Assembly (NCBI GenBank): GCA_028724545.1
Contig: JAQYCU010000075.1
Span: forward strand, 1-35,869
Reading direction: 5' to 3'
DNA length: 35,869 nucleotides
From: a bacterium
GTDB taxonomy: Bacteria > Bacillota > Clostridia > Lachnospirales > Lachnospiraceae
Shown here piece after piece: positions 28,740-32,000 of the stretch; position 1 is the stretch's first letter; each line of letters opens with the position of its first letter. A model generated the notes under the pieces. The model had not been told where the DNA came from and did no database searches. It saw nothing but the letters and a program-made list of their open reading frames with translations. The position numbers and the translations under genes are program-made.

Positions 28740-28786
28740 TTAGACGGATGTTCCTATCCGTCAAAATTATATAGTTGGAGATGGCA

Positions 28787-30184
28787 ATGACGGAGAAAAC
28801 AAAGAAGACAGGCAGACAGAAAAGCAAGTGTCAGACAGACAGGATAATCCTACAAAGAAGAAAACGATATCGTCTTTTTCTTTGTTTTTTGCTGCTGATT
28901 AATATTGGGGTTATTAGTGCCTGGTATTGGAAAAAAATGGATGATAAGGTGGCTAATCATATTTATCTTTATCAGAATCAGCAGGTTGATATTAATTGGG
29001 ATGTGCCCTTAGAAGGCAGCTTAAAAGAGGCACAGGATGTAATTGCAATCAGAAATGCAGGCAGTGCAGAAGCAGTAGTCAAAAATGCAAATCATGCAGG
29101 AAATACAATTAACAATGCGAACAGTGCAGAAAAAATGAAGCAGTCTTTTCAGCTAAACCATCCGGTTACTGTGACAGCAAGTACATTAGGCAGTTATCAG
29201 GCAGAACTGAAACTATTTGGTATTATTCCTTATAAAAGTATTCAGTTTGATGTAATTGAAGAAGCAAAAGTAATGCCGTCAGGAAGGGCAGTCGGGCTGT
29301 ATCTGCAGTCAGATGGCATTATGGTGCTGGGAACATCACAAATTGATGGAAAAGATGGATTTTCTTATGAACCGGCAAAAGATATTCTGCAACCGGGAGA
29401 TGTTATTTTGAAAGTGAACGGTACAGCAGTTGGGACAATTGACCAGGTGGCAGAAAAATTGCAGCAGGGCAAAGAAAAAAAGGTAAAACTGGAAATCAGG
29501 AGAGGCAAGAATAAACTGTATCTTAAATTAGACAAGATATTGGCGCAGGACGGGCAGTACAAAATAGGTGTATGGCTGCGTGAAGATACAGAAGGAATCG
29601 GAACATTATCTTTTATAACAGAGAAAAACCAGTTTGCTGCGCTAGGACACGGCATTGCTGATGTCGATACAGGAAAACTGATTTCATTGCGCAAGGGCCT
29701 GATGTATCTGGCAAAAATTGAGGGCATCCGGAAAGGCAAATCAGGCAGTCCCGGGGAACTGGAAGGAAGTGTTAATTTGAGTTCTGTAAACTGCATTGGA
29801 AAAATAGAGAGCAACACGGCGTTAGGGATAACAGGGACGATAATTGGAAAGGATGTTTCCTATCGAGAAAAAGAGGCACTTCCGGTTGGGCTGAAGCAGG
29901 AAGTAAAAGAAGGGAAAGCATGGATATTGTGCCAGCTGGGTGATACCGTGGAACGGTTTGAAGTGACAATCGAAAAGATAAATGTTAATTCACGTGACAA
30001 CAAAGGAATGGTCATTCGCGTAACAGACAAGAAGCTGATTCGGAAAACAGGAGGCATTGTGCAGGGAATGAGTGGCAGCCCGATTATGCAGAACGGGAAA
30101 GTTATCGGTGCTATCACGCACGTATTTGTCAATGAACCGACGAAAGGGTATGGGACGTTTATAGAAAATATGCTGGGAGAGTGA
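28787..30184 (+). CDS. spoIVB: SpoIVB signalling serine protease
   Basis: Made in the forespore and secreted to the intermembrane space, where it starts pro-sigma-K processing through SpoIVFA. The ATG at 28787 has GGAG six bases upstream (28781 and TTG 28775 are alternatives). The 465 residues include a membrane anchor (29-48), a PDZ domain near 150-240 (YLQSDGIMVLG, LQPGDVILKVNGT) and the S55 peptidase domain with His near 288 in AALGHGIAD and Ser near 431 in GGIVQGMSGSPI. Residues ~88-115 hold an Asn/Ala-rich insertion (RNAGSAEAVVKNANHAGNT). spo0A, its near-universal next gene, is absent. Confidence 0.95.
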   Translation: MTEKTKKTGRQKSKCQTDRIILQRRKRYRLFLCFLLLINIGVISAWYWKKMDDKVANHIYLYQNQQVDINWDVPLEGSLKEAQDVIAIRNAGSAEAVVKNANHAGNTINNANSAEKMKQSFQLNHPVTVTASTLGSYQAELKLFGIIPYKSIQFDVIEEAKVMPSGRAVGLYLQSDGIMVLGTSQIDGKDGFSYEPAKDILQPGDVILKVNGTAVGTIDQVAEKLQQGKEKKVKLEIRRGKNKLYLKLDKILAQDGQYKIGVWLREDTEGIGTLSFITEKNQFAALGHGIADVDTGKLISLRKGLMYLAKIEGIRKGKSGSPGELEGSVNLSSVNCIGKIESNTALGITGTIIGKDVSYREKEALPVGLKQEVKEGKAWILCQLGDTVERFEVTIEKINVNSRDNKGMVIRVTDKKLIRKTGGIVQGMSGSPIMQNGKVIGAITHVFVNEPTKGYGTFIENMLGE

Positions 30185-30233
30185 GTTATACGGTGGGATG
30201 AGAAAAAGAATGCGGCTTAAAAAATAGCAATGT

Positions 30234-30251
30234 ATTTGACGCACGTCAAAT
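30234..30251. promoter_or_regulatory. Palindromic operator copy 1
   Basis: ATTTGACGCACGTCAAAT has 8-base arms around a central CA. It overlaps the -35 box (TTGACG, 30236-30241) of the promoter for the HipA-like pair. An identical second copy lies 41 bases downstream. Confidence 0.9.
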
Positions 30252-30264
30252 AAAATGATATAAT
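30236..30264 (+). promoter_or_regulatory. Strong promoter of the HipA-like operon
   Basis: TTGACG (30236-30241) and a perfect TATAAT (30259-30264) are separated by 17 bases. The -35 lies inside operator copy 1, and the expected start site (about 30271) is just before operator copy 2. Repressor binding would block both polymerase entry and early elongation. Confidence 0.85.
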
Positions 30265-30274
30265 ATGTAAAATT

Positions 30275-30292
30275 ATTTGACGCACGTCAAAT
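30275..30292. promoter_or_regulatory. Palindromic operator copy 2
   Basis: The same 18-base palindrome, ATTTGACGCACGTCAAAT, is repeated exactly just downstream of the predicted start site. The 41-base centre-to-centre distance is close to four helical turns, favouring cooperative binding on one face. Confidence 0.9.
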
Positions 30293-30311
30293 GCATTAAA
30301 GGGGGCCGATG

Positions 30312-31124
30312 ATGAAATCACAAATCATAAAAGAAAAACAGGATCTTACTTACCTTAAATGGTCGCATATTCGTAGTTCCAGTGGAACTGCAGGAACTTT
30401 TTTGAAATCTGAGTCTACGATAGATGGCATTAAGAAATATTATAAACTATCTAACTTTGATTCCATAAAAGGTGTTGTTGGACATGAATGCATAAACGAG
30501 TTAATTGTTGATCGTTTATTAACCTTGTTAGAGGTTGAACATTTAAGCTATGAGCTTATACATGCAGATATAGATATAGAGGGAAACATATACGATACCT
30601 ATCTATGTGCTTCAGAAAATTTTAAAAAGCGCAATGAAAGTAAAATAGCATTGGATGATTATTATAGAATAAATGCACGAAAGGGAGAATCTCATTATAA
30701 TTTTTGTGTAAGGCAAGGCTGGAAAGAATATATAGATACAATGTTAGTTGTAGATTATCTTATATTAAATAGAGACAGGCATGGTGCTAATATAGAAGTT
30801 CTTAGAAATGCGAGAGCGCATACGCTTAGGATAGCTCCACTTTTTGATCACGGACTGTCGCTTTTATATTCATGTATGTCTGATAAGGAAGCAAAAGAAT
30901 TTGATGTTCTGGAAGATAAGCGTTGTCAGAATTTTATAGGGGGATATTCCTGTTATGAAAATTTAGGATTAATAGATAAAAAAAATAAACTGTTTGTAGA
31001 CAAATTACATGAATGCGATAAAAAATATATATTTGACGGATTAGAAGATATATTATCAGAAACTTTTATTGATAAAATTTGGCGCATGATTTATGAGAGG
31101 TATCAAGTATATGAAAATTTATGA
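30312..31124 (+). CDS. Short HipA-like serine/threonine kinase (putative toxin)
   Basis: A 270-residue kinase-like protein (ATG 30312; 30309 is also possible). The glycine/serine-rich loop is SSSGTAGTF (22-30), with a likely ATP lysine in KKYYKLS (41-47). The catalytic region reads NRDRHGANIEVL (153-164), with Asp155 and Asn160 at the positions of Asp309 and Asn314 of E. coli HipA, and APLFDHG (175-181) supplies the second metal aspartate. Classical HipA has ~440 residues; the N-terminal subdomain is missing here and may be supplied by the next gene. It is AT-rich, with many ATA codons unlike its neighbours, suggesting transfer. It overlaps the downstream gene by 14 bases and sits behind a doubly operated promoter, typical of toxin-antitoxin loci. 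The substrate is unknown. Confidence 0.82.
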   Translation: MKSQIIKEKQDLTYLKWSHIRSSSGTAGTFLKSESTIDGIKKYYKLSNFDSIKGVVGHECINELIVDRLLTLLEVEHLSYELIHADIDIEGNIYDTYLCASENFKKRNESKIALDDYYRINARKGESHYNFCVRQGWKEYIDTMLVVDYLILNRDRHGANIEVLRNARAHTLRIAPLFDHGLSLLYSCMSDKEAKEFDVLEDKRCQNFIGGYSCYENLGLIDKKNKLFVDKLHECDKKYIFDGLEDILSETFIDKIWRMIYERYQVYENL

Positions 31125-31908
31125 AATCTATGATGAAGAAAGTGATATGTCACTAGGGATTTTAATGTATTATGAAAAATCAAAGGGATACGTGATTGAA
31201 TTACAAAGCTATCTGGATGAATGGTCCGCTCCGTTGTTATTTTCAAAATATGTGAAGGAAAACATATATACAATACCGTCAGATGTTAGTTTTTTATGGG
31301 TGAAAGAAAGAGTTATTCCTAGTGGAAGACAAAATATAAATGATATATTAAAGTGGCATAATTTAAAAGAATATGATGAGATGAAATTTCTTGAAATCGC
31401 AGAAGGCAGATGCTCACAAGATAGCATATGCATTAAAAAGTTGGAGCGTCTGCCAAACTATGTAGAACAGAGAATGGAAAAAAATATCGTAGAGTGTGTC
31501 GTTACCGATGATAAGAAACTGCTATGTATATTTGCGGATGATAAAATAAAAAGGGTTGATGTATCGAAGCTAACATATGTGGATGATGTTGATAAAATCT
31601 TAAAGAATACGAAAGTATTTGAATCTGCGAAGATAGGTTTGGGCGGATTTTCGGTTGTATTTAATGATACAATAGAAATATCAGCACGATTGCTGTATAA
31701 AGAAGGGAATACAATTCCTTTTTCAATGAAGGACATAAGGAATTTTGTTGAGAAGAATATATGTGATACATCGGAATGCTGTGAACTCTTAGGTTGTACA
31801 AGACAGAATATATCATATATGGTAAATGAAAAACAAATCACACCTATTAAAGAAAATGTAAAAGGAAATTTGTATATGAAAGGTGATGTGATAAAGAATA
31901 CTTGGTAA
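31111..31908 (+). CDS. HipA-N-like / DUF2442-like / HTH fusion (putative antitoxin and autorepressor)
   Basis: A 265-residue protein; ATG 31111 has GAGAGG ten bases upstream, and a frame from 31093 is possible. Residues 1-112 (GILMYYEKSKGYVIEL, then WVKERVIPSGRQNINDIL and LEIAEGRCSQDSICIKKL) follow the order of motifs in the HipA N-terminal subdomain. Residues 126-202 match the DUF2442 pattern (ECVVTDDKKLLCIFADDK, VDVSKL, VVFNDTIEISARLLY). Residues 205-262 form a helix-turn-helix (DTSECCELLGCTRQNISYMV, then a wing ending YMKGDV). The DNA-binding part would recognise the upstream palindromes, and the N-terminal part would contact the kinase. The domain calls for the first two regions are inferred from pattern only. 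It is AT-rich like the kinase. Confidence 0.65.
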   Translation: MKIYEIYDEESDMSLGILMYYEKSKGYVIELQSYLDEWSAPLLFSKYVKENIYTIPSDVSFLWVKERVIPSGRQNINDILKWHNLKEYDEMKFLEIAEGRCSQDSICIKKLERLPNYVEQRMEKNIVECVVTDDKKLLCIFADDKIKRVDVSKLTYVDDVDKILKNTKVFESAKIGLGGFSVVFNDTIEISARLLYKEGNTIPFSMKDIRNFVEKNICDTSECCELLGCTRQNISYMVNEKQITPIKENVKGNLYMKGDVIKNTW

Positions 31909-31970
31909 GCATTTATTGAACAGTTGTACCAAAGTTAGAAATATCTACACGGAATATGTTACAAAATTCC

Positions 31971-31999
31971 TTGACAAAACTCCATATTAGAACTACACT
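31971..31999 (+). promoter_or_regulatory. Promoter of the TetR-family gene
   Basis: A perfect TTGACA (31971-31976) and TACACT (31994-31999) are separated by 17 bases. Confidence 0.72.
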
Positions 32000-32000
32000 A

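Follow-up and report, generated by a model that had tools for sequence, protein, structure and literature searches.

HipA-type kinases are encoded beside their partners in more than one order. In hipBA, the gene for HipB lies upstream of that for HipA, a protein of about 440 aa that includes an N-subdomain. The HipBST systems of E. coli O127 and Legionella consist of three genes in the order B-S-T, and their kinase, which has no N-subdomain, phosphorylates TrpS. HipS is the antitoxin of these systems and contacts the glycine-rich loop of the kinase HipT (PMC10627512). Gerdes et al. (2021) described pairs in which the kinase comes first, namely hipIN (partner with a HipS-like part and HIRAN), hipJS (HipS) and hipMP, and gave hipAB and hipEB as arrangements of reversed order (PMC8262856).

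The window, by which we mean the whole stretch of 35,869 nucleotides that was analysed, carries a kinase-first pair with the features below.

30235..30251, no strand assigned: putative operator site 1, TTTGACGCACGTCAAAT, a perfect palindrome containing the -35 box TTGACG (30236-30241)
30259..30264, + strand: -10 box TATAAT, 17 nt after the TTGACG of site 1
30276..30292, no strand assigned: putative operator site 2, TTTGACGCACGTCAAAT, a perfect copy roughly over the expected transcription start
30309..31124, + strand: HipA/HipT-like short Ser/Thr kinase, open reading frame of 271 aa, likely toxin
30375..30395, + strand: glycine-rich loop SSSGTAG, kinase residues 23-29
30768..30791, + strand: catalytic motif NRDRHGAN, kinase residues 154-161
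30834..30854, + strand: Mg-binding motif APLFDHG, kinase residues 176-182
31111..31908, + strand: partner with HipS-like, DUF2442 and winged helix-turn-helix (HTH) domains, 265 aa, likely antitoxin and autorepressor
31111..31446, + strand: HipS-like domain, partner residues 1-112, by fold comparison
31483..31719, + strand: DUF2442 domain, partner residues about 125-203, by fold comparison and hhalign
31726..31905, + strand: excisionase/MerR/BldC-like winged HTH, partner residues 206-265, by fold comparison

Both open reading frames, the three kinase motifs and the overlap of 14 bases between the genes are as an earlier, sequence-only reading of this DNA had described them, and the overlap is identical in 58 of the 74 relatives with a motif-found kinase (among the best 80 of 332). 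That reading had also favoured the second ATG of the kinase, at 30312 (270 aa); as this codon is better placed relative to AGGGGG (30300-30305) and the relatives agree, translation probably begins there rather than at 30309.

Like hipJS (clade XI, PMC8262856), the locus has a short kinase gene followed by a HipS-encoding gene, and 4 of 32 relatives are of exactly this form; in the other 28, however, the partner continues with DUF2442 and a winged HTH, whereas the hipJS partner is described there as HipS alone. It resembles hipIN (PADLOC PDC-M03) in placing the kinase first, in a partner with a HipS-like start and a second module, and in kinase profiles that align, but the second module of hipIN is given as HIRAN and here it is DUF2442 plus HTH. 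PDC-M03 belongs with hipIN: L115, which matches it best, starts with a HipS-like region and, according to a profile built from five such proteins, ends in HIRAN. With HipBST the locus shares a kinase that, by sequence, has no N-subdomain, the HipS fold, an HTH and the same three predicted functions; it differs in having two genes instead of three, with the kinase first, S and HTH joined via DUF2442, and an HTH of another kind. Neither the long HipA nor the upstream HipB of hipBA is present. NE0471 (PDB 2auw) has DUF2442 followed by an HTH, and no HipS domain was seen in its chain of 151 residues.

Bacteria of the same order also carry a second Hip arrangement (L030, L175-L185 and L188), in which the gene for an HTH-HipS protein of about 180 aa lies upstream of the gene for a kinase of about 270 aa. 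It too joins an HTH and a HipS-like domain in one polypeptide, but its HTH is Cro-like and comes first, HipS is second, the gene precedes the kinase and DUF2442 is absent, so that the arrangement looks like a hipBST system whose B and S have become one protein. We saw no fusion of an N-terminal HTH to HipS in the results section of PMC8262856.

The statement in the sequence-only reading that no described system has this architecture was therefore too strong, since kinase-first hipJS and hipIN had been described (PMC8262856). Gene order and inhibitor domain were known before; what is new is the kinase-first order together with a HipS-DUF2442-winged HTH partner, of which we found no description among the open-licence PMC papers listed. 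Because hipIN, hipJS and the HTH-HipS fusion share parts with the cassette but differ in the partner, we regard it as a new variant.

Domains of the kinase and its partner

The glycine-rich loop of the kinase starts at residue 23, which leaves no space for an N-subdomain and agrees with the earlier description of a kinase without one. Residues S24, S25, G26, T27 and G29 are invariant in kinase alignment A4 (71 rows). Among the profiles, PADLOC PDC-M03A fits the kinase best (8.7e-10); the kinase CtkA from the PDB also gave a profile match (1.2e-4), and hhalign of the window kinase family against a profile of four hipIN-type kinases gave a probability of 96 and an E value of 6e-9, yet the window and hipIN-type kinases form separate lineages in small trees with long branches. 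All 12 rows of alignment A2 match Pfam HipA_C, the best of them at E 0.0018, while the window's own row scored 15.8 bits, under the curated cut-off of 30.5. By these profile matches the kinase is a short member of the HipA superfamily. Direct sequence comparison gave no NCBIfam match and only weak Pfam matches.

Rows of A4 were filtered on N.DRH, which excluded L039, L040, L056, L072, L111 and L114, so that the invariance of His158 in A4 follows from the selection. Four further loci were left out of A4 as unclear in start or loop (L058, L064, L080 and L098), and L098, with its non-ATG start, was left out of A3. Two of the filtered loci, L039 and L072, encode full-length kinases that carry NRDRRGAN instead of NRDRHGAN (residue 158) beside intact partners; judging from this motif, these kinases are possible attenuated toxins.

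The partner had been read as one protein, encoded after the kinase, with S-like, DUF2442-like and HTH regions, and each of the three was recovered in this two-gene, kinase-first layout. PF13657 (HipA N-domain) is scarce in the phylum (3 of 149 genomes) and offers no good HipA-N profile; HipA-N was therefore assessed by fold comparison, which found the HipS/HipA-N fold in residues 1-112, with HipA structures 2wiu and 3tpb among the matches. No sequence similarity of the HipS domain was detected between E. coli K-12 HipA and the partner profile. Partner residues 70-73 may correspond to the Glu63/Trp65 loop of HipS, an alignment on which no conclusion here depends. The middle region matches DUF2442 (PF10387) by hhalign (E 6.6e-10, probability 96.6) and, over residues 120-200, by fold, and Pfam itself detects one of 12 members (E 0.0029). 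The C-terminus is an HTH by Pfam HTH_17 (E 0.047), PHROG 4691 'excisionase' (3.6e-14) and fold comparison. PDC-M03B matches the partner weakly (3.5e-4), and hhalign to HipN-type proteins spans residues 67-107 only. A HIRAN C-terminus was considered and set aside, the region after HipS being positively DUF2442 (hhalign) and HTH (PHROG, fold).

Mean identity over 71 pairs, from the best 80 of 332 loci, is 66% for the kinase, 64% for HipS, 52% for the HTH and 45% for DUF2442. HipS is thus about as conserved as the kinase, and DUF2442 and the HTH are less so, which is in favour of the division of labour proposed below. Against it, a crude covariation test by mutual information leans more towards DUF2442 than towards HipS as the kinase contact, with 19 and 6, respectively, of the 30 highest-ranked pairs between kinase and partner. 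The set has few sequences (Neff 53) and carries phylogenetic signal, and its top pair is an artefact of the gene overlap.

Pairing, loss and mobility of the two genes

In a first draw of 246 genomes of the order, the partner gene lies downstream of the kinase in all 11 loci with a close homologue (46-74% identity). A second draw of 397 genomes of the family gave 32 kinases at E 1e-40 or better, the window included, and the partner gene was directly downstream in all 32. The draws overlap (they share the window and four of the 11), and neither contained a partnerless kinase of this family (11 + 32 loci). The partner ends after HipS in four of the 32 loci (L231, L233, L234 and L235; kinase identity 39-48%), in one of which, L235 (G814), the kinase match contains one stop; the 28 three-domain partners were recognized by BLAST alignments that extend across the HTH. 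These four loci amount to a natural ablation, by which HipS is the part of the partner kept in 32 of 32. In the kinase tree the HipS-only loci are interspersed among three-domain loci.

A scan of genome contigs returned 332 partner relatives, and the best 80 of these, most of them from Lachnospiraceae by record title, were analysed. Of these 80 loci, 76 have a full-length kinase upstream, detected by motif in 74 and by tblastn in L039 and L072. The contig edge truncates L056, and in L040, L111 and L114 the partner is retained with the kinase gone or reduced to a C-terminal tail. The resulting asymmetry of loss, in which the kinase is missing from 3 of 79 partner-found loci and the partner from 0 of 32 kinase-found loci, is small and insufficient alone. 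An orphan three-domain partner was also seen at L180:426-1241, - strand (G266), where the adjacent kinase trace is a C-terminal remnant only; the L180 stretch carries a separate HTH-HipS/kinase pair as well.

The two-gene cassette is mobile. Its 148 nearest neighbour open reading frames (72 upstream and 76 downstream, among the best 80 of 332 loci) fall into 123 sequence clusters, the largest of 6. In the window it is preceded by what we take to be recN and spoIVB and followed by presumable TetR-like, GNAT and ABC transporter genes (stretch 28775-32000). A spo0A-like gene follows spoIVB in 7 of the 8 same-genus loci examined (12 fetched), and in the window the cassette stands there instead; the spo0A-like gene of this genome, with 92% identity, is on a different contig. 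In another species of the genus an unrelated open reading frame, presumably Uma2-like, follows spoIVB (L197:928-1461, - strand), so the junction after spoIVB may be a recurrent place of insertion.

Promoter and operator sites

The two copies of the palindrome flank the -10 box at a spacing of 41 bp, and 70 of the 71 relatives with at least two sites keep a spacing of 40-51 bp (best 80 of 332). Scored at no more than 3 of 15 fixed positions differing, the 76 kinase-bearing loci among these best 80 have two sites (69 loci), three (2) or one (5), and none is without. A TATAAT matching in at least 5 of 6 positions lies at 16-18 nt in 57 of these 71 relatives, vs 9 of 71 with shuffled spacers. Shuffles of the window gave a mean of 0.14 matches at up to 2 mismatches, with two matches in 1 of 100 shuffles. 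When up to 1 mismatch is allowed, these two places are the only matches to the pattern in the entire genome of 2.27 Mb; a backwards control pattern equally had 2, so the genome-wide count shows nothing alone and the case for operators rests on position and conservation. The surrounding DNA of the 80 loci holds 11 further matches in 855,726 bp. With its own-genome matches confined to the cassette promoter and so few sites elsewhere in the 80 loci, a host regulon of the operator was dropped.

In the family draw of 32 loci, 23 of the 28 HTH-bearing loci have one or more sites, and the four HTH-less loci have none. The remaining 5 HTH-bearing loci have no site at up to 3 mismatches, and the absence from the HTH-less loci is suggestive rather than proof because those four are more distant (kinase identity 39-48%). 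A second operator pair, with a spacing of 43, was seen at L037:2618-2677 beside no significant kinase or partner match. The gene near it is, we assume, SfsA-like, and a gene resembling it lies next to the cassette in L006-L008 as well; the L037 pair may mark a place from which a cassette has been lost.

Proposed mechanism and alternative explanations

On balance we consider it probable that the locus, whose kinase belongs to the HipA superfamily, is a self-contained toxin-antitoxin cassette of type II, made up of a kinase toxin and a three-domain antitoxin and autorepressor. The free minimal Ser/Thr kinase would phosphorylate an essential host protein and so stop growth. The HipS-like domain, recognized by its fold, would by analogy with HipBST bind the kinase and hold it inactive, and the C-terminal winged HTH is predicted to shut the shared promoter by binding the palindromes, which cover the -35 box and the expected transcription start. 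The weakest step is the part played by DUF2442, which probably serves to join or dimerise the complex or else is where an outside signal or protease acts. Of the earlier proposal that one polypeptide is both antitoxin and repressor, the repressor side is backed by the conserved paired palindromes in the promoter, and the putative antitoxin side by fold and pairing. A more specific proposal, which we think unlikely, is that DUF2442 is the trigger: since it would couple HipS to the repressor, one event on it (a phage product, a protease or a ligand) would at once free the kinase and derepress the operon in an all-or-none manner, and the domain would do the same job in other toxin-antitoxin pairs.

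The same parts could instead serve as an anti-phage (abortive infection) module, in which the DUF2442-HTH part would sense infection and release the kinase, the trigger and purpose being different; this is a tentative reading, to which we give distinctly less credence than to a self-contained toxin-antitoxin cassette. Published work has suggested such a role for hipIN and hipRF/hipRG, the profile that fits the kinase best is that of a phage defence candidate, with the second component, PDC-M03B, matching the partner weakly, and the cassette is patchily distributed among varied neighbours. Phage-borne kinase relatives exist but are weak (8 records, at most 51% identity); the phage search gave two partial, weak matches to the partner, and the viral contigs searched gave no match to either protein. 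On the other side, PDC-M03 denotes a candidate only. The genes around the window cassette, as we assume them to be, resemble housekeeping and transport genes.

It is quite unlikely that the pair is a kinase-controlled transcription switch with no toxin, in which the kinase would phosphorylate the partner, relieve repression and tune host genes. The DNA-binding domain of the partner and the operator pair would make a clean promoter switch, but no regulon was seen in the operator counts given above, a circuit of the host would not be expected at such varied genome positions, and the HTH is missing in 4 of 32 relatives. We similarly doubt strongly that the kinase requires HipS as a subunit in order to be complete, with the pair as the active toxin and the HTH or DUF2442 as the sole restraint: the same fold is integral to HipA (2wiu, 3tpb) and HipS and kinase occur together in 32 of 32 loci, but this fold is reported as the antitoxin in HipBST (PMC10627512), and the four HipS-only relatives would then be without a linked inhibitor. 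A chance pair of open reading frames is excluded by the kinase-partner pairing in 32 of 32 loci.

Returning to the proposed toxin-antitoxin cassette, record titles indicate that it is common among rumen and gut Lachnospiraceae. Its partner places DUF2442, annotated as a family of unknown function, beside an inhibitor domain of known mechanism, and since HipS-only and three-domain partners share one kinase lineage, the role of each added domain is testable by natural ablation. Together with the HTH-HipS fusion, the cassette indicates that HipA-type kinases have come under DNA-binding control through HTHs of different kinds, fused to one or the other side of HipS.
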